From: Sphingomonas sp. URHD0057
Lineage (GTDB): Bacteria > Pseudomonadota > Alphaproteobacteria > Sphingomonadales > Sphingomonadaceae
Assembly (NCBI RefSeq): GCF_000620665.1
Contig: NZ_KK211162.1
Coordinates: 951,764-1,015,763 of the forward strand
Length of the DNA: 64,000 bases
Direction of reading: 5' to 3'
The translations under genes were made by a program, and so were the position numbers. Under the pieces are notes generated by a model, which worked only from the letters and a program-made list of their open reading frames with translations, ran no database searches and was not told the origin of the DNA. Positions within the stretch are counted from its first letter, which is position 1, and each line of letters opens with the position of its first letter. Shown one piece after another: positions 53,359 through 64,000 of the stretch.

Positions 53359-56300
53359 TTACTTGAACGTGCGCGTCACGTTCACGAATATCGAGCGGCC
53401 ACGATAGTCATACCCGGAATTGGCAAAGAAGTTGCCGAAACGCCCGTATGGATTCACGTTATCGTTGCTGATCGTCGGCGGATCCTTGTCGAACAGGTTG
53501 TTCACGCCAATCGTGAACTCACCAATGTCACGCCACAGATATTGGGCCGACACGCTGTGCTCGAAATAGTTGGGCACCTTGAAGTCGTAGTCGACAAGGA
53601 AGCAACCCGGCCCAGCGCCCAGCGGACAGACAGTACCGTCGTCTTGTCGGTAAGCGGCGGTTGCGAACTGTTGCGAACTCATCTTGCCAATGAAGTTCAC
53701 GCCCCAACGGAAGGTGAAGCCGCCGGTCTTGAACCGTGTGTCGAGCGAGCCGCTCCACTTCGGGCCGGCGCCGGCACCAGGATAACCCAGCGTTCCGTTG
53801 AAGTCGTTAACTTGACCACCGGGGAAGTTGACGATCGACTGTTTCAACATCCGGGTTGCCTGCAACTGCGTCGAAAATTGACCGCCGAAGAAGCGTGCAG
53901 CGTAACGCGCGTCGAAGTCGATGCCCCTCGCTTTTTGCGACGCGATATTGAGATAGGGGTTTTTGAGTAGGACGAGGTTGCCGACTGCGTTCGGGGTCGG
54001 CGCATTGGCGACCGTGTAACGCGCTCCCGCAAGCGCACAATAGGGGTTGTCGGGGTAGGACCCGCCATAGGTATCCGTATCCAAGCAGAACAACAGGATG
54101 TTTTGGGCGCCTAGCACTGAGACTTCGCCCTTCACATTGATGTTCCACAAATCGACCGCGAGCGAGAAATCGGCGATCCGCTTCGGCACGGTCAAGACTA
54201 CGCCGCCGCCCCAGGTCCTGGCGGTTTCCGCCTTGACGACGCCTGCTCCGCCCGTCGTTTCCACTTGGAACCCGCCGCCTTGCCCACCATAGTTGAGCGC
54301 TTTAGCCTGGTTGCCGTTAAACGCCGCCGTCAGTTCGGACAGGCAGTGGTCATAGAGCGCTTGGCCAGGTGCAGATTTCTGCGGAAACAGGTCGCAGGGA
54401 TCGAGAGAGTTAGGCTGGAAGCCGATCTGGGACGCAACAAACTGCTCGTAGAGGTTCGGCGCGCGGAAGTTGGTGCCGTAGTTGCCGCGGAACCGAACCG
54501 CCGCCACCGGCGCCCATTGCGCACCGAGGTGATAGGTCCATCCCGTGCCGTACGATTTATAGTCGGTGTAGCGGCCCGAAGCGTCGAGCTCGAGTAGGTT
54601 TAGGAACGGCCGATCCCGGAAGAACGGCAGGTCGATTTCGGCGTAAGCTTCCTTGACGTTGTCCGAGCCCTTCGTCCGCGCAGCCGTGCCATAGCGGTAA
54701 ATGTCGCCAGCCGAGCGTTCGGCGCCGGGCTGATCGTCGATATGGTCGCCGCGATATTCGAAGCCGACGGCGCTCTTTACGTCGCCGCCGGGCAGGGCGA
54801 ACAGGGTACCATCGAAGTTGAGAGCGAAGGTTTCCTGCTTGTACGTCGTCTTGGTGTAATTCAGCCATGGGTAGAGATAGGCGATCTGCTGAGGGGTGAT
54901 CGCGCCATTGAGGAAAACGTTCGGGTCGAAGATATTGAGCGGCTGACAGGTACCGCCATTGTATGCGCCGTTCGTGACGTTGCTCGCGCACGTGAACGAC
55001 TGACCTGCCAGATACTGACCGGGAAGCGCGGTCGTGATGAAGTCCGCGGGCGTGCCCGAGGGAGCCACCACTGCGTTCAGGACGTTCGTGACCGCGTCAG
55101 TGGTCGAAACCTGACGGTCGTCGCGCCCTTTTGTGTGCGACAATTGCACGTTGGCATCATAACGCCAGTCGCCAAGACCCAGGTTGCCGCGAATGCCGCC
55201 ATTGGCGCGCCAGAAATCTACCTTCTGCTTATTCTGCGGTACGAAGTTTGGCGCATAGAGCGGATTGGTTGCTATCAGCCCAGCGTTATTCCAGGCAATC
55301 GGGTAGAAGGGCGAAACCTGCGACGCATATATCGGGCTATGGACGTAGTACTGATCGCCCGGGAAAAAGTCGGGACCATACCTTTGAACCGTCAGCGCGC
55401 TTCCGCCGCTGGCGCTGCCTAGCCAGTCCAGACGGTCCGTCGAATACTGATGCGACGTACGGCGGACGAACAAGCCTTCGCCATACAGTTCGGCATCGCC
55501 CAGCGCCCCCAACTCATAGGAGCCGTTCACATAGCCCGTGTACGTCTTGAGCGGCGTCAGGAACGTGTTGTCCAGAATGTTGTAGTTGGTATCCGGGCGA
55601 TCGTTGAAATCGAACTGATTCTTCGCAACCGCGACCGGAACACCAAAAATGTCGGGATGGCCGGTCCAGTAATCGGCGAAGGAGACTCGGGCCGGTCCTG
55701 GTGCCGGGCCGGTGAGGTTCTGACGCCACCACGATCCCAAGCCGTAACCCGCCGGAGTGCCGAGGGTGGGACCAGGCCCGAGTGAATAGCAACGCAGTGT
55801 GCCAGGCTCGTGTGGCCGGGTCTGGCCAACCTCGTGGCCATTGACGAAGGCCAATTCACGCGCGCAGCGGGTATCCTTACGATCGCCGAAGTCCAGACCC
55901 TGGTCCTGCTTATATTCGAACGAAGCCATGATGTGGCCGCGGGCGAAGGTCTTGCCGGCGGTAATTGAACCGCGCAGCGTCTGGCCAGCGCCGATCAGCG
56001 GATTATCCGCGAAACCGTCGAGCGTGATACCGTTGATTGACGTGTCCGTGACGACGTTGATGACGCCCGCGATCGCGTCCGAACCGTAGATCGAGGACGC
56101 GCCCTCGCGAAGGATTTCGATGCGCTGAACGACAGCCGTCGGCAGCGTGTTGAGATCGGCCGCGATGAGCTGTTCGCCGACGCCGGCCGGCGAAAGCCGG
56201 CGGCCGTTGAGCAGAACGAGGGTACGCGACGAGCCAAGGCCGCGAAGACCGACCGTGTTCGCACCCGTTCCGTTGTCGGACAAGAAGCCAAGGAAGCTCC

Positions 56301-56661
56301 CGCTGACCTGCGACGTGCCGGACGTAACGCTGCTTGATTGCAACGTGTCGGCCACCGAACGAGTGCCCGCCAAGACCTGATCGTCGCGCGTCAAAACGTC
56401 GATGTTCTGGGGTGTGTTGAAGTTATTGCGGCGGATGCGCGATCCGGTGACGACGATCGCGCCGCCGCTTGCGGCCGGCGGCGTCTGAGCTACCGCCTGG
56501 CCTGTGGCGTTGGTCGGCCCGCTCGACGGCGGAGTGGCCTCGCCCTCTTGCGTCTTCTCGGGGGTCGTATCGACCGGAGCTGGAGTCTGCGCAAATGCCG
56601 GCGAAGCGGTCAGTGCGACAATGGAGATCGAAGAAAGAAGCAGTGAATTAAAGGCGCGCAT
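53359..56661 (-). CDS. TonB-dependent receptor (1100 aa), left member of the receptor/sulfotransferase locus
   Basis: An outer-membrane active transporter. Signal peptide [25 protein letters not shown], a Pro/Thr-rich linker, then a TonB-box-like [10 protein letters not shown] at residues 67-76. The plug contains [20 protein letters not shown] and [17 protein letters not shown]; the remainder is barrel ending [10 protein letters not shown]. Extracellular-looking regions carry several cysteines ([33 protein letters not shown]). The subfamily resembles the receptor at 58835. It shares its strand with the TPR-sulfotransferase 151 bp upstream. No ligand can be inferred; iron-siderophore specificity is not supported. 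Confidence 0.93.
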
Positions 56662-56812
56662 GGCTCGGCCATCCCCTCAGATTGGCTAGAAAACGAAGGG
56701 GCTTACTGACCGACTGAGGCTCTAAAAAAAAACTAAATCTGCCGCCGTTCGCAGATTGCTCGAACCATGTAACATTAATGCCACATGAAGAGGTGTCGGC
56801 TATACGACACTT

Positions 56813-58591
56813 CTACTCCCGCCAATTGCCCAGCGTCTCTCCCAGCGCTCCCTTGAGGTCGCCGAGCCACGGCTCATAGTTGCGCCACTTGCCGAAGCCG
56901 GCGCGATTGATGGGCCGCCGAACCTGTTCGGAGCTCGGCGTGTGCACGGCACGCTCGGTTTCATAAAAACGCAGGCATGCCTCGTCGAACGGAACCCCGA
57001 CATAGTTCAGGAGCCGGCGCACCTCCCCCTCGAGATCGTCGACTAGATCGTCATGGATCAGGCGATGAACGCGGCCGGGCAAAACCTCATCGAAATGACG
57101 CATCGCCGCGACATAGTCGGCATAATATCGCCCCATGCCACTCTGGCTGAAACTATGGTCTGCCGCGGAGCCATAATAGCGGAAGTAGTTTGCGAAGCAG
57201 CAGTCCATGGGATTGCGCCGGACGTCGATGATCCTCGCGTTCGGCAGCATGCAATGGATCAGGCCGATAAACTTCCAGTTCCCGGGATATTTGTCGGTCA
57301 GGAACGGGCGCCGCGTCCGCCGGGATCGCGATGATATCTCGAAATAGCGTTGGCCGAACAACTTGAAATCTTCATTCTCGAGGGCTCTCAGCGTGTCGCC
57401 ATAATTTTGATCCGGATGACTCAACGCCAGCTCGTTCGAGAAGGTGTTGATGATGAAAAGCTCTTCGCTGCCCTCGATCTGCGAATGGCTGGAAAGGATC
57501 TGCTCGACCAGGGTTGAGCCGGCACGATGCATCCCGACGATAAAGATCGGGCCGCTGCGCTGGTCACCCCACCCTTGCCGCTCATCGAAGAATTGCTGCG
57601 TGAAAGTCTCGCGGATGAAGGCGGACCTCCCGATGATGGATTTCGATTTCGGCTTCTCGGTCTTGCCGCGGATTTCACTGCCGAGTTCGATATGCTCGAT
57701 GGCGCGCTCGAACTCGCCCGCCGAATCCAGCGCCTTGGCAAGCGCGAAATGAAGCGGAACCCGTTGCCCGTCGGGCAGATCGTCACGCTCGAGCGCCGCC
57801 TCCATCTGGGCGATATCGCTTTCGAACAAAGCGACATTCTTGAGGTCGGCCAGGGTCCACCACCCTGATCCGTTGCCGGGATCGAGCGCAAGCGCCGTCC
57901 GGATCGCCGCCACCCCCTCGCCCGCCTCGCCGAGCGTTTTCAGCAGATACCCGTATCCGATCCAATATGCCGCGACCTGCGACTGCAGCGAGACGAGCTT
58001 GCGACAGGCCGCGTGAGCCTGGTCGAGGCCGCGCGTCTGCATCATCATTTCGGCCTTGAGCGCCAGACCGCGCTCGTGAGCGGGTTCGATCTCCAGCGCC
58101 CGGTCAAACACTGCCGCCGCCTTGTAAATCAGCTCCGGAATGTCTTCGTGAACCGCAATTCGGCGAAGCGTCGCGGCGAGATCGACAAGCGCATCCGGAT
58201 CATCGACATGAAGGCGAGAGGAATGATCGAGGATTCGGTCGCTATCGGCGCGAAGCCCGCAATAAGCGGCAATCTCGGCCATCATATGCATGGCCGGAGG
58301 ATCGTTGCGGATAATCGCGAGGTGCTTCCGCAGGAGGATTTCCGCTTCCTCCAGCTCGTTCTCGTCAATCAATCGCCGCGCCTCGACGATTTCCGGCGCG
58401 GTCGGCGTCGCTTCCGGCTTGGAGTTGGGGAAATCCCGTTGGTATTGCTGCACGACTTCGCGGAGCCGCTCGGCGGCTGACTCATCGCGCGGCGCGGCCG
58501 CAACTGCCGCGCGGGCCCGCTCAGCAGCTTCCCTCGATTGGCTTTCCGGTCCCACTTCGCGAGCATTACTTTTTGACGAATTCGACAGCAT
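56813..58591 (-). CDS. TPR-repeat sulfotransferase-family protein
   Basis: A 592-aa protein. Residues about 60-300 are TPR-like helical repeats (for example EARRLIDENELEEAEILLRK and AYWIGYGYLLKTLGEAGEGV). The C-terminal sulfotransferase domain has the PAPS 5'-phosphosulfate loop GPIFIVGMHRAGSTLVEQIL near residue 355 and the 3'-phosphate site in IIDVRRNPMDCCFANYFRYY. It resembles TPR-fused sulfotransferases found beside TonB-dependent receptors. No signal peptide is visible, so it probably works in the cytoplasm. Target unknown; protein tyrosine or a glycan are possible. It is divergent from the receptor at 58835. Confidence 0.9.
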   Translation of the reverse strand: MLSNSSKSNAREVGPESQSREAAERARAAVAAAPRDESAAERLREVVQQYQRDFPNSKPEATPTAPEIVEARRLIDENELEEAEILLRKHLAIIRNDPPAMHMMAEIAAYCGLRADSDRILDHSSRLHVDDPDALVDLAATLRRIAVHEDIPELIYKAAAVFDRALEIEPAHERGLALKAEMMMQTRGLDQAHAACRKLVSLQSQVAAYWIGYGYLLKTLGEAGEGVAAIRTALALDPGNGSGWWTLADLKNVALFESDIAQMEAALERDDLPDGQRVPLHFALAKALDSAGEFERAIEHIELGSEIRGKTEKPKSKSIIGRSAFIRETFTQQFFDERQGWGDQRSGPIFIVGMHRAGSTLVEQILSSHSQIEGSEELFIINTFSNELALSHPDQNYGDTLRALENEDFKLFGQRYFEISSRSRRTRRPFLTDKYPGNWKFIGLIHCMLPNARIIDVRRNPMDCCFANYFRYYGSAADHSFSQSGMGRYYADYVAAMRHFDEVLPGRVHRLIHDDLVDDLEGEVRRLLNYVGVPFDEACLRFYETERAVHTPSSEQVRRPINRAGFGKWRNYEPWLGDLKGALGETLGNWRE

Positions 58592-58834
58592 CGCCAGCCG
58601 CTTAAGGGCGAAGCGCCAATGGCGTCAATCTACGTGACAGAAGCGAGAGCCGCGCGCGCCAAAGGATCCGCCGGAAGCGCTCGCCCCGCAACACGACTGA
58701 GTCGGCAAAAACGTCACAGTTCATGCTTGATTCACTTTCGTGCTCTCCCGTCGATTGACAGTTCCCCTTCGGGAGGCAAATCATTGCGATCGAGTACCGG
58801 TCTCTTGCCTGGACCGGTCCAGAGGGGACGAGCA

Positions 58835-61800
58835 ATGGGAACAACAGAGCGTCGGGCTGCACCCGCACGCGCCGGGCTTCTGGTCAGCGTGTCGGCCACC
58901 GCCATCCTCCTTTCTTCACCGGCTTTGGCCCAAACCGCCGATCAGCCGCCCGCTCCGGCGGCGACAACGCCTCCGACCGCCGACCAGCGACAGGCTCAGC
59001 AGAGTCTGCCGGCCAATCCGACGGTCGGTTCGAGCGGCGCGAACACGGCCGCGAGCGAAGACCGCAACCAGATCGTCGTCACCGGCACGCGCATCCGGCA
59101 GCCCGAGTTTACGAGCTCGGACCCGGTCGCCTCGATCGACCCCTCGCTCGCGCGGCGGGAAGGCAAGCTGGATACCGCGGACACGCTGCAATCGTCACCG
59201 ATCGCCGCCGGATCTGCGCAGGTCACCGCGGCGATTTCGTCGAACCTGGTTACGAACGGCGGCCCAGGCGCCCAGACCATCGACCTTCGCGGCCTTGGGC
59301 CCAACCGTACCCTGGTGCTCCTGAACGGCCGCCGCGCCGGCCCCGCCGGAACCCGCGGCGGCGTGTCGTCCTTCGACCTCAACGTGCTTCCGCAATCGAT
59401 CATCAGCCGCATCGACATCCTCAAGACCGGCGCTTCGTCGATTTACGGCTCGGACGCCGTGGCCGGCGTGGTCAACATCATCACCAAGACCGACACGAAC
59501 GGCATCCAGCTCGATGCAAATTCCTCGGTTCCGATCAGCGGCTCGGGGAGTCAGTATCAAATCTCCGCGACATGGGGGAAGAAGTTCGATCGCGGCCACG
59601 TCATGGTCGCCGTCGATTACTACCGACAGAACGAGCTGCAGCGCGGCGACCTTCCCTATCTCGGTTGCCCGGAAGCCTTCGTTTTCACCGACGAGAGCCA
59701 TAACCAGCGCGCCGACCTGATCGACCCAAGGACCGGGAAACCGCACTGCGAGGACCTGCGGTGGGGCCACGTTTGGACCTATGAGAGCACCGGCCAGCTT
59801 TACACCACCACCGGCCGGTACGCCGCTGGTCCGGGGTACACCCTGCTGCAATATCAGTATCCGGGCGAGAATCTTGGTTTGCCACCGATCGACCCATCGC
59901 TAGGATTCTCATCGCCACCGGGTTGGTTCCCGACCGGCTATGACAGCGCATCCCTTGCGGTGCAGAACGCCTTCCACCCGTTCGTTGGCCAGCAGTCGAT
60001 CATTCCGCCAACCACCCGCTACACCGTGTACGCCGACGCATCCTACGAATTCGCCGACGCGATCGAAGGCTATGCCGAGTTCCTCGGCAATCGCAGGAAG
60101 ACGTACCAGAACGGCTGGCGCCAGCTGTGGACCTACGGCTACGGCGAAGACGTTTATCCGGACAACCCGTGGGGCCAGGGTTGGCACGGCCCCAACCTGC
60201 TCAGCCCGCTGACGATCACCAATCACGCCGATGCCGGGCAGAAGGTCGATTACTGGCGCGGTGTCGGCGGGCTTCGCGGCGATCTCGGCGGCCTCTTTAA
60301 GGGCTGGGCGTATGACGCTTACGTCCAATACAGCCATAACAAGGGGCTCTATAAGACCGAGCAGTTCCTTCAGGACGTCTACGACGCCTCCTATTCCCAA
60401 ACCGCGTCGTGCGTCGGGAGGACCCTCCCGTTTTCGGGCAAGCAGTGCATGGATCTACCGTGGACGGATCCATTCTTCCTCGCCGGCCAGATGACCCCCG
60501 AACAGATCGACTATATGTTCGATTGGGAGACCGGCAAAACCATCTACAAGCAGCTGAGCGGCGAAGCGTCCGTCAACGGGCATTTGTTCGACATGCCGAC
60601 CGGCGCAGGCCCCGTCGGACTGGCCTTGGGCGTGACGGTGCGGCGTGACTCGATCGTCGATACACCGGGCGACATCACCTTCTCGCCCAACCCCAATTAC
60701 GATCCAACGATCCCGCTGACCGATCCGCGTTGCACCAAGCATTTCTTTGCCCAGCCCTTATATCCGTGCGATCAGTTCCACAGCAATGCGTGGGGGGTCA
60801 GCTCGGGCGGGATTACCGCGGGCCACAGCATTACGAAGGAAGCGTTCGGGGAAATCGAAATCCCGATCCTGAAGGACGTCCCGTTCTTCCGCAGCCTGAC
60901 ATTGTCCGGCGCGGCGCGCATCACCAACGTCACCGCCGTCCAGCGAGACTCTGGGATAACCGACAAGGACACCGGGAACTGGACCTACAAGATCGGAGGC
61001 AATTGGGCGGTCAACAAATGGCTGCGGTTCCGCGGGACCTATGGGACGTCGTTCCGGGCGCCGGCCTTGTTCGAAGAGTTCAAGGCGAACGAGACAAGCT
61101 TCGTCACTACCTCTCGTATCGACCCTTGCGTACGGGTCACGGCAAACCTCGCGGCCCACAACATCGGCCAGGCGCAGCATGATCGATGCCTCACTGAGCT
61201 AACGGCGCTTGGCGTGCCCAATCCCGGAAATTACGGAGGAGGCACGGTCAGCGCGACCGTCTTCGGCCAAGGCGGCATCGGCAACCTCGATCCGGAAACG
61301 TCCAAGGCGAAGACCGCGAGCGTCATCCTGACTCCGAGCTTCTCCTTCCTGCCCGACACCCGTTTCAGCGTCGCCGTCGATTATTTCGACATCGACGTCA
61401 AAGGCGAAGTCTCGCAGCTCGGCGCATCAACGATCCTGAACCAATGCTATCAGAGTGCGGAGTTCCCGAATTCGTTCTGTGGGCTCTTCACGCGCGCTGG
61501 TACTGGCTCACCCGACCCGGGTCAGATCCTCGCGATCCACGACAGGTACATCAACATTGCGGACCAGAAGACCAAGGGCATCGATGTGACCGGACTGGTC
61601 CAGCACAATATCCCCGGAGCTGGCCAGATAAGCCTGCTGGCAAACATGAGCTGGACGCTCAAGCAGCAATTCTCTCTGTTCCCCGAGCAGCCCGAGGACC
61701 TCCTCGGGGTCATCGACGCGGTCGGCCAGACGCGCACGGGGACGAGGAGATTTGTCGGGGACTTCAGGGTGACCTGGCGAGTGCCGGGCGGCTGGTCGCT

Positions 61801-62185
61801 GTTCTGGGGAAGTGAGGTCTTCAGCGGAGCGAGCAACGAGAAGGAATTCCGGGACAATAACGGCGGCAGCCTGTGCGTCGACAATTTCGCTGCGGACATC
61901 AACGGCGACCCGACGACGATCCCGCTTCGAGGCCACATTTGCGTGGACGTGAAAGTGCCGTCGGCGTGGTATCACAATGCGTCGATCACCAAGGAGTTCG
62001 GCAAGGACTTCGAGTTCACGGTCGGCATGAGGAACGTCTTCGACAAGAAGCCGCCGCGGGTGAGCCTGGTCGGCCCGACGACAGGCGCCGTCGGCCTCCC
62101 CGCTACCATCGGCCCGGTCGTCGCGACGTCGCAATACGACTTCCTTGGAAGGCGGATGTTCGTCAGTGTGAGCAGGAAATTCTAG
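58835..62185 (+). CDS. TonB-dependent receptor (1116 aa), right member of the locus
   Basis: A paralogue of the left receptor. It starts MGTTERRAAPARAGLLVSVS with a signal peptide ending near ALA-Q, then IVVTGTRI at residues 80-87, plug signatures [20 protein letters not shown] and [19 protein letters not shown], and a barrel ending MFVSVSRKF. Cysteines in loops align roughly with the left paralogue (YLGCPEAFVFTDESH, KPHCEDLRW, ASCVGRTLPFSGKQC). ATG 58835 follows AGAGGGGACG. The upstream in-frame stretch to 58619 is likely promoter DNA. A strong terminator lies after the stop, before the sulfotransferase genes. Confidence 0.93.
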   Translation: MGTTERRAAPARAGLLVSVSATAILLSSPALAQTADQPPAPAATTPPTADQRQAQQSLPANPTVGSSGANTAASEDRNQIVVTGTRIRQPEFTSSDPVASIDPSLARREGKLDTADTLQSSPIAAGSAQVTAAISSNLVTNGGPGAQTIDLRGLGPNRTLVLLNGRRAGPAGTRGGVSSFDLNVLPQSIISRIDILKTGASSIYGSDAVAGVVNIITKTDTNGIQLDANSSVPISGSGSQYQISATWGKKFDRGHVMVAVDYYRQNELQRGDLPYLGCPEAFVFTDESHNQRADLIDPRTGKPHCEDLRWGHVWTYESTGQLYTTTGRYAAGPGYTLLQYQYPGENLGLPPIDPSLGFSSPPGWFPTGYDSASLAVQNAFHPFVGQQSIIPPTTRYTVYADASYEFADAIEGYAEFLGNRRKTYQNGWRQLWTYGYGEDVYPDNPWGQGWHGPNLLSPLTITNHADAGQKVDYWRGVGGLRGDLGGLFKGWAYDAYVQYSHNKGLYKTEQFLQDVYDASYSQTASCVGRTLPFSGKQCMDLPWTDPFFLAGQMTPEQIDYMFDWETGKTIYKQLSGEASVNGHLFDMPTGAGPVGLALGVTVRRDSIVDTPGDITFSPNPNYDPTIPLTDPRCTKHFFAQPLYPCDQFHSNAWGVSSGGITAGHSITKEAFGEIEIPILKDVPFFRSLTLSGAARITNVTAVQRDSGITDKDTGNWTYKIGGNWAVNKWLRFRGTYGTSFRAPALFEEFKANETSFVTTSRIDPCVRVTANLAAHNIGQAQHDRCLTELTALGVPNPGNYGGGTVSATVFGQGGIGNLDPETSKAKTASVILTPSFSFLPDTRFSVAVDYFDIDVKGEVSQLGASTILNQCYQSAEFPNSFCGLFTRAGTGSPDPGQILAIHDRYINIADQKTKGIDVTGLVQHNIPGAGQISLLANMSWTLKQQFSLFPEQPEDLLGVIDAVGQTRTGTRRFVGDFRVTWRVPGGWSLFWGSEVFSGASNEKEFRDNNGGSLCVDNFAADINGDPTTIPLRGHICVDVKVPSAWYHNASITKEFGKDFEFTVGMRNVFDKKPPRVSLVGPTTGAVGLPATIGPVVATSQYDFLGRRMFVSVSRKF

Positions 62186-62203
62186 GCCTTACGGCTTGGT
62201 TTT

Positions 62204-62240
62204 ACGGGGGGCGGCCCTATTCTGCCGCCCCCCGTTTCTT
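62204..62240 (+). terminator. terminator or attenuator between the receptor and the sulfotransferase genes
   Basis: A perfect 12-bp stem (62204-62215 and 62224-62235) with an 8-nt loop is followed by TTCTT. It starts 19 bp after the receptor stop and ends 18 bp before the GTG of the next gene. It probably lowers read-through so that the receptor is made in excess over the enzymes. Confidence 0.75.
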
Positions 62241-62257
62241 GTAAGCGAACTCCAACC

Positions 62258-63067
62258 GTGGCCATGCAAGCCGTCATCAGGGTGAAGCCGGATACGCTGG
62301 ACGCCGACACCGTCCGCTTCGCTCCCGAGCCCTTGCGGCAACCCTTGTTCCTCAACAGCATTCCGAAGAGCGGCAGCCACCTTCTTCGAAACATCCTGCG
62401 GATGTTCGTGCCCGTCGAGCAGCAATATCGCGAACAATTCATCCAGTGGCCGAACATCCGGCAACATCTCGACGCCTTCGACTCCGCCCGCAACTACATG
62501 AGCTTCGGGCATCTGTTTTTCACCGACGGCCCGGCGATTGAGCTCGCCGACGTGCGCAAGATCCTGCTTTACCGCGACCCCCACGAATGGGTCTTGTCGC
62601 GTGCGCGATTCTATCTCTCCGATGAGTTCCAGGGCGAGCTTGAGCATCTCAAGGACGGCCGCATCCACGTCGATGATCTCCTGACGCTGATGATCTTTGG
62701 AATTCGCACCGTCGTTCCGTCCCTGAACCACATGTACGAGCTGAATGTCGTCGCCTGGCTCGGGTCGGATGTTTTTGTGGTGCGTTATGAAGACCTTATC
62801 GAGCACGTGCAGGCACTCGAAACGAACCAGGCCGAGTCTTACTTTGCCGCACTGTTCGAGGCGTGCGGCATTTCCCCCGTGCCGGCCAATTGGAAAGAGC
62901 GCGTCCTGGTCGGAGCAGACCGACGCCAAAGCGGAACGGCGCGCGAGAACCTGACCGGCATCCGGACCAAGCTCCCCGACACCCTTCCCGCCAAGCACCA
63001 GCAAATGATCGAATATGCGGCGCCGGGGTTGCGCGCGATCCTCGGCTATGCCGATCGCGCTCGATGA
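62258..63067 (+). CDS. stand-alone sulfotransferase-family protein (269 aa)
   Basis: A 269-aa sulfotransferase-fold protein without TPRs. The 5'-phosphosulfate loop is PLFLNSIPKSGSHLLRNILR, and the 3'-phosphate site likely DVRKILLYRDPHEWVLSRAR. VVRYEDLIEHV is a second family element. The start GTG 62258 or ATG 62264 is only a two-residue difference. Its stop overlaps the start of the next TPR-sulfotransferase as ATGA. It follows the receptor gene by 72 bp including the terminator. Substrate unknown; there is no signal peptide. Confidence 0.85.
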   Translation: MAMQAVIRVKPDTLDADTVRFAPEPLRQPLFLNSIPKSGSHLLRNILRMFVPVEQQYREQFIQWPNIRQHLDAFDSARNYMSFGHLFFTDGPAIELADVRKILLYRDPHEWVLSRARFYLSDEFQGELEHLKDGRIHVDDLLTLMIFGIRTVVPSLNHMYELNVVAWLGSDVFVVRYEDLIEHVQALETNQAESYFAALFEACGISPVPANWKERVLVGADRRQSGTARENLTGIRTKLPDTLPAKHQQMIEYAAPGLRAILGYADRAR

Positions 63068-64000
63068 CCGGCATTTCCGCATACCCTCGCCTGCGCCAGG
63101 CGGAGAAGGCGATCGAAGAGGGCCGTCTGGAAATGGCTTCGGCGATCGTGATCCAGCATTTGCGGGAAAATCGGAACGAACCGCGCGGGGTTGCTCTTCT
63201 CGGCTCGATCGCGTTCAAGATGGGCGCGCTGGTTCAAGCCGAGCAGTTCCTTCGGCAAGCGATCGCGGTTGGCGGCAGCTCACTCGAAGTCCAACGCGAG
63301 CTCGCCTCCGTCATGCACCACCAGGAGCGTTTGCCAGAGGCGTTGAGCGCTCTGAGCGTGCTTCAGGACCAAACTCCCGACGTGGGACTCCGCGGTGCAA
63401 AGGCGCTGATCCTCGATAAGCTCGGACGCAACGCCGAAGCGATCCGCGAACATGAAGACCTGGTGGCGAAGCATCCCGACCACCCCCGGGTCTGGCTCGG
63501 ATATGGGAACAGTCTTCGCTGGGCCGGCCGCAACGAGGAAGCCATTGCGGCTTACCGCCGGGCGACCGCGATCGATCCTGAACACGGCGATGTGTGGTGG
63601 GCGCTCGCCAATATCAAAACGAAGGTCCTCACCGACGAAGACATCGAGATCATGAAAAGCGCGTTGAAGCTTGCGATCGACGAACGAAACGTCATTCCGC
63701 TTCATTTCGCGCTCGGCCGAGCCCTTCACGATCGCAAGGAGTATCAGGGCGCTTTCGAGCATTTCGAAACCGGCAACCGACTGCGCGCAGAAACGATCAA
63801 TTACGTTCCCGAAGACCTGAGCGCCGAGGTGGATGAGATCGGCCGGCTATTCGACCGGGAGTTCTTCGAACGCCGTGAACGGCCGGCGCCGCGCGACGAA
63901 CCGACGCCGGTGTTCCTGATCAGCTTGCCCCGCGCCGGGTCGACATTGCTCGAGCAGATGCTCGACCAGCATCCGGACATCGAAGCCGTCGGTGAGCTCC
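63064..64000 (+). CDS. TPR-repeat sulfotransferase-family protein, partial (runs off the right edge)
   Basis: The first 312 codons are in the window and the gene continues. The protein starts MTGISAYPRLRQAEKAIEEG and has TPR repeats over about residues 15-200 (LEMASAIVIQHLRENRNEPR, VWLGYGNSLRWAGRNEEAIA). A short linker follows, then the sulfotransferase 5'-loop VFLISLPRAGSTLLEQMLDQ near residue 285. It is clearly related to the gene at 56813. The ATGA overlap with the preceding gene indicates coupled translation. The 3'-phosphate site lies beyond the window. Confidence 0.9.
   Translation, partial: MTGISAYPRLRQAEKAIEEGRLEMASAIVIQHLRENRNEPRGVALLGSIAFKMGALVQAEQFLRQAIAVGGSSLEVQRELASVMHHQERLPEALSALSVLQDQTPDVGLRGAKALILDKLGRNAEAIREHEDLVAKHPDHPRVWLGYGNSLRWAGRNEEAIAAYRRATAIDPEHGDVWWALANIKTKVLTDEDIEIMKSALKLAIDERNVIPLHFALGRALHDRKEYQGAFEHFETGNRLRAETINYVPEDLSAEVDEIGRLFDREFFERRERPAPRDEPTPVFLISLPRAGSTLLEQMLDQHPDIEAVGEL

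Follow-up and report, generated by a model that had tools for sequence, protein, structure and literature searches.

Sulfotransferase genes paired with TonB-dependent receptors in a sphingomonad and many of its relatives suggest chemical tuning of receptors before export

We analyzed a 64,000-nucleotide stretch of the Sphingomonas sp. URHD0057 genome (contig NZ_KK211162.1, positions 951,764 to 1,015,763; hereafter, the window), which ends in a cluster of genes for TonB-dependent receptors (TBDRs) and putative sulfotransferases (Table 1). As proposed in an initial annotation made from the sequence alone, the window carries two receptors of about 1,100 residues with cysteine-containing loops, recognized by their Pfam plug and barrel domains. 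It also carries three sulfotransferase genes, supported by Pfam and, for the short one, by its predicted fold: two encode sulfotransferases fused to tetratricopeptide repeats (TPR-STs) and one encodes a short sulfotransferase (short ST a). The divergent gap indeed measures 243 bp, and the length of TBDR2 is counted from the ATG that gives this gap. The window ends inside the locus, beyond which lie TBDR3, short ST b and TPR-ST3. The full locus comprises 3 TBDRs, 3 TPR-STs and 2 short STs, arranged as TBDR1 and TPR-ST1 on the minus strand, followed on the plus strand by TBDR2, short ST a, TPR-ST2, TBDR3, short ST b and TPR-ST3. In both plus-strand units, the short ST and the TPR-ST behind it overlap by a few bases (4 bases between the stop of short ST a and the start of TPR-ST2).

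Table 1. Features of the receptor/sulfotransferase locus, in window coordinates
Feature	Position	Strand	Basis
TBDR1, TonB-dependent receptor, 1100 aa	53359-56661	-	Pfam Plug 9e-17, barrel 6.5e-19
TPR-ST1, 592 aa, N-terminal TPRs and Sulfotransfer_3 (residues 348-537), tyrosylprotein-sulfotransferase-like	56813-58591	-	Pfam
Divergent intergenic region, 243 bp	58592-58834	.	
Promoter-like TTGACA-N18-AATCAT upstream of TBDR2	58755-58784	+	consensus match only
TBDR2, TonB-dependent receptor, 1116 aa, partner of short ST a	58835-62185	+	Pfam Plug and barrel, predicted model
Long loop of TBDR2, probably extracellular (codons 266-392), with C278, C305, W310-G-H-V-W314-T-Y316 and Y342	59630-60010	+	
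WGHVWTY motif codons of TBDR2	59762-59782	+	
GC hairpin of 12 bp with T-rich tail in the receptor/short ST gap, attenuator-like	62204-62235	+	
Short ST a, 269 aa, predicted SULT (cytosolic sulfotransferase) fold	62258-63067	+	predicted structure
TPR-ST2, 526 aa in the genome	63064-64000, continuing past the window end to the equivalent of 64644	+	

The plus-strand order of receptor, short ST and TPR-ST is as first described; the minus strand had been described as receptor-first, but there TPR-ST1 is promoter-proximal and the receptor comes after it. The further proposal that one unit had been duplicated around a shared promoter was not supported, and a recent duplication of that kind was rejected, as the left unit lacks a short ST and is far from the right one (31% identity between TBDR1 and TBDR2, 32% between TPR-ST1 and TPR-ST2). 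The two plus-strand units are closer to each other (47% for TBDR2 and TBDR3, 55% for the short STs, 37% for TPR-ST2 and TPR-ST3) but old, and TBDR3 clusters with receptors from other genomes, not with TBDR2, in a FastTree tree. A recent tandem duplication was therefore also rejected, on the identities and on this tree position.

Both TPR-STs of the window match Sulfotransfer_3 strongly (4.4e-42 and 1.4e-41; Pfam). When compared with solved structures, a profile of the TPR-ST domain retrieved protein-tyrosine sulfotransferases first (1.3e-30 to 2.5e-25), with weaker matches to CurM (4e-20), uncharacterised proteins (1e-9), cytosolic sulfotransferases (SULTs; 6.5e-6 or weaker) and heparan-sulfate enzymes (3e-4 or weaker). 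Judging from these matches, the domain is closest to tyrosylprotein sulfotransferases (TPSTs), with a putative activity of that kind. It aligns with TPST1 and TPST2 over about 225 residues (1e-25 to 1e-30) and shares with them the PRxGxT loop, a GE-type glutamate, a lysine and an S..QV motif. Five columns are strongly conserved among 95 TPR-STs: R12 in 93, T16 in 93, E33 in 93, K90 in 89 and S209 in 92. Arg, Glu, Lys and Ser thereby occupy the positions to which catalytic roles are assigned in TPSTs. The residues of the donor loop, which binds 3'-phosphoadenosine-5'-phosphosulfate (PAPS), are intact in the TPR-STs, in agreement with the initial annotation. An Arg, a Ser and a His or Glu base are named in general terms in PMC6637879. 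Unlike TPST1 and TPST2, the TPR-STs are cytoplasmic by appearance, carry TPRs and have no Golgi anchor: reading of their N-termini, which are either TPRs or soluble, revealed no membrane anchor of the animal TPST type, and no obvious signal peptide was seen by eye in the sulfotransferases. A bacterial TPST without a membrane anchor has been described (PMC9372746).

The short STs are more divergent. Short ST a matched Pfam Sulfotransfer_1 at 20.1 bits, below the 22-bit cut-off, short ST b had no Pfam match, and searches of PDB sequences with the short ST, as a single sequence and as a profile, returned no match. The predicted model is nevertheless confident (mean pLDDT, 93.6) and points to a SULT fold, with Teg12 and SULT7A1 as the closest folds (Z scores up to 13.6 over 203-217 residues; Z 13.6 for both) and the glycopeptide sulfotransferases Teg12 and StaL among the nearest, at 11-19% identity among the matches listed.

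To assess how general the pairing is, we scanned 59 Sphingomonadaceae genomes, one per genus, for Sulfotransfer_3, which is present in 55 of them; the TPR-ST type occurs in at least 45. As TPR-STs we counted the listed Sulfotransfer_3 matches with a match length below 600 bases, and all counts hold among the matches listed; the TPR part itself was confirmed by Pfam for four TPR-STs of the home genome. Regions of 20 kb were taken around 75 listed TPR-STs outside the home genome and around 20 stand-alone sulfotransferase controls, and neighbours were called with home-made hidden Markov models on stop-to-stop open reading frames (ORFs), so that frame-broken genes are missed. Three TPR-STs with low scores against their own model (L095, L087 and L096) were kept among the 75, and tandem second matches in genomes G032 and G054 were covered by their neighbour's region. 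A receptor plug domain lies within 300 bp of 45 of the 75 TPR-STs, versus about 2 expected from the at least 2135 plug matches in the 191 Mb of the 59 genomes, and of 2 of the 20 controls. Within 3 kb the counts are 55/75 and 5/20, and anywhere in the region 62/75 and 6/20. Thus, TPR-STs are paired with receptors far above chance. Furthermore, the TPR-ST clades track the receptor class, with 14 label changes in the FastTree tree versus 61.7 in shuffles; the FastTree trees contain some long branches.

In a tree of 121 receptors, a clade of 31 is entirely TPR-ST-linked and another has short STs beside 22 of its 24 members, the other two lying in the same loci as linked ones. Because this set was gathered around TPR-STs and short STs and is biased when taken alone, reverse searches starting from the receptors were done. 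For one receptor class (class A), up to 15 candidates were scored per genome in the 59 genomes, and second receptor pieces and a contig-edge fragment (G052:C135) were dropped, leaving 33 distinct loci, 30 of which have a TPR-ST within 300 bp (compared by eye). Of the three exceptions, the receptor of G032 is broken in frame and has a TPR-ST at 1.8 kb; those at G018:C3 and G009:C12:1157980 have none at such distances. A second receptor class is convergent with its TPR-ST (L022, L024, L025, L027, L030, L033 and L054) and has three conserved Tyr columns preceded by Asp or Glu.

The short ST is rarer, being found in 23 of 397 Sphingomonadaceae genomes. In a first sample of 24 loci, both home copies included, the gene immediately before the short ST is a receptor in 23, and the one immediately after it is a TPR-ST in 19. 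A second sample, the best 80 of 168 loci from named genomes and partly drawn from the same genomes as the first, extends beyond the Sphingomonadales to Maricaulis, Marinicaulis, Henriciella, Hellea and others, as well as to Gammaproteobacteria (Porticoccaceae, Woeseiaceae and Alteromonadaceae). Here, a receptor lies directly upstream in 66 of the 71 loci with room for one and a TPR-ST directly downstream in 45 of 74, and the most conserved unit is therefore the receptor with the short ST. As for the five misses, the receptor is broken in frame or short in L157 and L180, downstream in L213, about 4 kb upstream and accompanied by hydroxylases in L236, and absent in L212. In the reverse direction, 22 of 23 loci of TBDR2-like receptors scoring above 500 bits have a short ST (by eye). 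For a receptor in G102 (674 bits), both the short ST and a nearby TPR-ST are absent, and TBDR2-like receptors of G151 and G119, among others, also lack a short ST. Among 15 loci at 300-490 bits, L123 and L128 adjoin short-ST units, the distance to a TPR-ST is about 3 kb or less in G271, G145 and G274, and ten have no TPR-ST near by coordinates. The co-occurrence across sphingomonads that the initial annotation had offered as its check thus exceeds chance and reaches into the Gammaproteobacteria.

The receptors linked to these enzymes carry distinctive loop motifs. The TBDR2 family has ten conserved Cys, all of them shared by TBDR1 and placed in the long loops of the TBDR2 model, the sides of the loops being assigned from strand and turn lengths in this model and, for class A, by reading. 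The motif WG[HQ]xWxY, which follows a Cys pair in a long loop, is found in 82 of 89 short-ST-linked receptors versus 2 of 119 others, both of which lie in short-ST loci. The 89 contain near-duplicates from the overlapping samples; in the 71 non-redundant rows, W310 is conserved in 70, W314 in 65, Y316 in 70 and Y342 in 68. The TBDR2-type loop has the form WGHVWxY...QYxY. Unlinked paralogues within the short-ST clade have lost W310, W314, Y342, Y499 and W543, which counts as one event because the two sequences are near-identical. In class A receptors, a loop Tyr is conserved in 31 of 31 and the Asp before it in 30 of 31, within a D-Y-[ST]-x-Y-like stretch (loop form SDYSDYxxxYD), and DYx[DE]Y is found in 22 of 31 class A receptors versus 2 of 177 others. 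An Asp at position -1 is a main determinant for human TPSTs (PMC5562738). Acid-flanked Tyr sites exceed shuffled sequences in class A (1.42 versus 0.85) and class B (1.90 versus 0.93). A candidate loop peptide tied to a TPR-ST of the home genome itself, at C3:382 kb, lies around TTDYTDYAEAYD. Two rules were discarded: that the motif requires an enzyme gene next to the receptor, as an unlinked class A receptor keeps it, and that acid-flanked Tyr enrichment is general in linked receptors, as classes C, D and E do not follow it.

Taken together, the loci in this sphingomonad and in many relatives suggest that receptors may be chemically tuned before export. We favour the reading that dedicated cytoplasmic enzymes sulfate receptor loops prior to export, and we put the chances of this at about even. 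Receptor sulfation, one of several options raised in the initial annotation, is the best supported of them, by the constant neighbour, the TPST-like TPR-ST and the Tyr and Trp loop motifs, from which we infer the receptor's role as substrate. Under this proposal, the sulfotransferases would use PAPS as the donor to sulfate loop tyrosines of the new, still unfolded receptor. The TPR-ST would act like a TPST, with its TPR part holding the client, and the target of the short SULT-type enzyme would be the aromatic WGHVWxY loop characteristic of its own receptor subfamily. Once the receptor has been exported, its sulfated residues would sit in disulfide-stapled extracellular loops and shape ligand binding. 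The modified residue, the timing, the part played by the TPRs and the effect on the receptor are all presumptive. PAPS is made in the cytoplasm, and the receptor precursor is unfolded before it enters the Sec pathway, so that linear Tyr motifs would be reachable, as for RaxX. Linkage to PAPS synthesis is sporadic: in the home genome, a 768-aa TPR-ST (L019:4842-10040) lies directly upstream of PAPS-making genes, cysD and a cysN/APS-kinase (adenosine 5'-phosphosulfate kinase) fusion, and elsewhere such genes were seen only as a cysD-cysN pair near the stand-alone sulfotransferase control L103 and as a partial cysD hit at the edge of L218.

A full-text search, with subscription journals and preprints outside its reach, showed no report of this receptor/sulfotransferase pairing in its listings or in the articles consulted (PMC3621798, PMC5562738, PMC6637879, PMC9372746, PMC10040529, PMC3908369 and PMC4110880). 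The nearest cases are methanobactin operons and RaxST. RaxST of Xanthomonas, likened here by its description, is a bacterial TPST encoded with its client RaxX, on which it acts in the cytoplasm prior to secretion (PMC6637879, PMC9372746); in our loci the constant neighbour is instead a TBDR and the enzyme carries TPRs. Bacterial TPST genes are often located beside genes for extracytoplasmic proteins, according to unpublished observations mentioned in PMC9372746. The expectation in the initial annotation that modification precedes export fits both the bacterial TPST precedent (PMC9372746) and the apparent lack of signal peptides.

Several observations weigh against receptor sulfation. Of the 75 listed TPR-STs, 30 lack a receptor within 300 bp and 13 lack one anywhere in the 20-kb region, and in the second sample 29 of 74 short STs are not followed by a TPR-ST. 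The two unlinked receptors inside the short-ST clade retain Y316, and an unlinked class A paralogue in G018 keeps DYSYY, in a genome that has another class A TPR-ST. Acidic-Tyr sites are not enriched in class C (1.00 versus 0.94 in shuffles), D (0.67 versus 0.62) or E (0 versus 0.19), and at least one such site also occurs in 14 of the 36 receptors that lack a TPR-ST nearby. Each set of motif-bearing receptors is essentially one clade, and the motif may thus be kept for ligand binding. We know of no precedent for cytoplasmic sulfation of an outer-membrane protein precursor. Finally, peptidase, hydroxylase and halogenase neighbours would also fit a peptide client.

Shared families were sought in 28 of the 80 second-sample loci, and a separate comparison identified three of them; 18 loci fall outside the named Sphingomonadales (two of the 18 in unclassified Proteobacteria). 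More than a third of the 18 share three families, those of the receptor, of the short ST and of a Trp halogenase (13/18), and a prolyl-oligopeptidase-type peptidase comes next (6/18). Up to four tryptophan halogenases stand in a row in short-ST loci. TPR-Asp/Asn hydroxylases, TPR-2-oxoglutarate (2OG) oxygenases and prolyl-hydroxylase-like enzymes also adjoin such receptors.

Such chemistry is at home in natural products and lends some weight to an alternative that we nonetheless regard as unlikely: the sulfotransferases would act on a secreted peptide or small metallophore, and the receptor would re-import it, as proposed for MbnS and the TonB-dependent transporter of methanobactin operons. 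In these operons, a sulfotransferase, MbnS, is encoded beside a TonB-dependent transporter (PMC3621798), an adjacency shared with our loci; MbnS differs in belonging to PF00685, and its proposed acceptor is a Thr of the peptide. The presence of Teg12 and StaL among the folds closest to the short ST points the same way, as does a prolyl-oligopeptidase-type peptidase in 6 of the 18 loci, which would fit a peptide ligand. A table in PMC10040529, on halotolerant Pontixanthobacter relatives, lists sulfotransferases and an Asp beta-hydroxylase next in number to lasso-peptide genes, their clusters being numbered next to those of lasso B2, PqqD and asparagine synthase. However, of the 36 places with lasso-peptide B2-type genes (PF13471) in the 59 genomes, none is less than 20 kb from a listed TPR-ST (nearest, 31 kb; by eye), an argument against lasso peptides as clients of the TPR-STs; this result and the published table pull both ways and leave our assessment unchanged. 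Nor did any precursor or exporter family stand out in the 18 loci among ORFs of at least 60 aa, with families in four or fewer loci partly identified.

Sulfotransferases commonly act on glycans, and the enzymes here might sulfate a glycan, lipid or other envelope component, with the receptor as a co-regulated neighbour. We consider this improbable, as the TPR-ST domain is nearest to protein-tyrosine sulfotransferases, with heparan-sulfate enzymes far down the same search, and as a shared glycan target would not predict that TPR-ST clades track the receptor class. To a similar degree, we doubt that the receptor imports an aromatic compound that the enzymes then sulfate, halogenate or hydroxylate in the cytoplasm. 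SULTs act on phenols, and the small-molecule SULT fold predicted for the short ST would suit such a role, but the TPR-bearing enzymes (TPR-ST, TPR-Asp/Asn hydroxylase and TPR-2OG oxygenase) suggest protein clients and, among the families identified in part, no inner-membrane transporter stood out beside the pair. Sulfation of a different exported or periplasmic protein, a functional partner of the receptor, would suit a TPST-like domain but appears very unlikely, since beyond the peptidase in 6 of 18 loci no second exported candidate stood out in the short-ST loci.

Receptor sulfation might itself be part of a broader bacterial system in which individual TBDRs are edited before export by enzymes encoded in their own operons, resulting in loops with non-standard residues. 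We put this forward tentatively, as a possibility somewhat less probable than its opposite; the editing would comprise Tyr sulfation and perhaps hydroxylation of Asp, Asn or Pro and halogenation of Trp by the neighbouring TPR-hydroxylases and Trp halogenases. Sphingomonads encode dozens of TBDRs per genome, mostly of unknown ligand: the home genome has 23 plug matches, and the 59 genomes average about 36 (six with at least 65 counted as 65). If the loops of some receptors are sulfated, halogenated or hydroxylated, ligand prediction from sequence would fail for such receptors, and bacterial protein-tyrosine sulfation would be far commoner than the few known cases imply, given the number of genomes with TPR-ST-type enzymes.

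The plus-strand units also contain candidate regulatory elements. The promoter-like element upstream of TBDR2 recurs upstream of TBDR3, although the scanned region contains 5 such sites versus 3.8 expected in shuffles. A terminator-like hairpin occupies 58 of 68 receptor-short ST gaps versus 0.5% of mononucleotide shuffles in a hairpin-plus-T-tail test, which was used in place of an energy threshold that failed to discriminate (94% of shuffles passed). Positioned before the short ST, the hairpin would give a high output of receptor and a low output of enzyme.

Some loci show further arrangements of the same genes. Two to four tandem tryptophan-halogenase-like genes stand beside receptor-short ST pairs in L223:339-6725, L228:10813-15835 and L219:3435-6709, which come from two Woeseiaceae metagenome-assembled genomes (MAGs) and one unclassified Proteobacteria MAG. 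The prolyl-oligopeptidase-type peptidase, which could process a peptide ligand, is encoded in L198 (identified by Pfam), L203, L208, L221, L223 and L228. The home genome has a further locus with a TPR-ST followed by a receptor, and another with a receptor, a sulfotransferase-like gene without a Pfam match, a TPR-Asp/Asn hydroxylase and a TPR-ST. Receptor clusters with these last three genes are seen in L018:2380-9369, L084, L088 and L092, the gene in L018 having no Pfam match and being sulfotransferase-like by reading. Downstream (3') of TPR-ST3 lies a minus-strand gene resembling S-adenosylhomocysteinase (named by eye). Near an ahcY-like gene, as in the home genome, L133:2145-8009 (G392, same genus) carries a receptor whose downstream neighbours are a TPR-2OG oxygenase and a prolyl-hydroxylase-like gene in place of sulfotransferases, as if modifying enzymes had been swapped at one chromosomal site. 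About 18 kb past the window end, L015:9812-11814 contains a gene that is sulfotransferase-like by reading and without a Pfam match, with a PKHD-type 2OG oxygenase gene behind it; the same combination recurs in L133 and L231.

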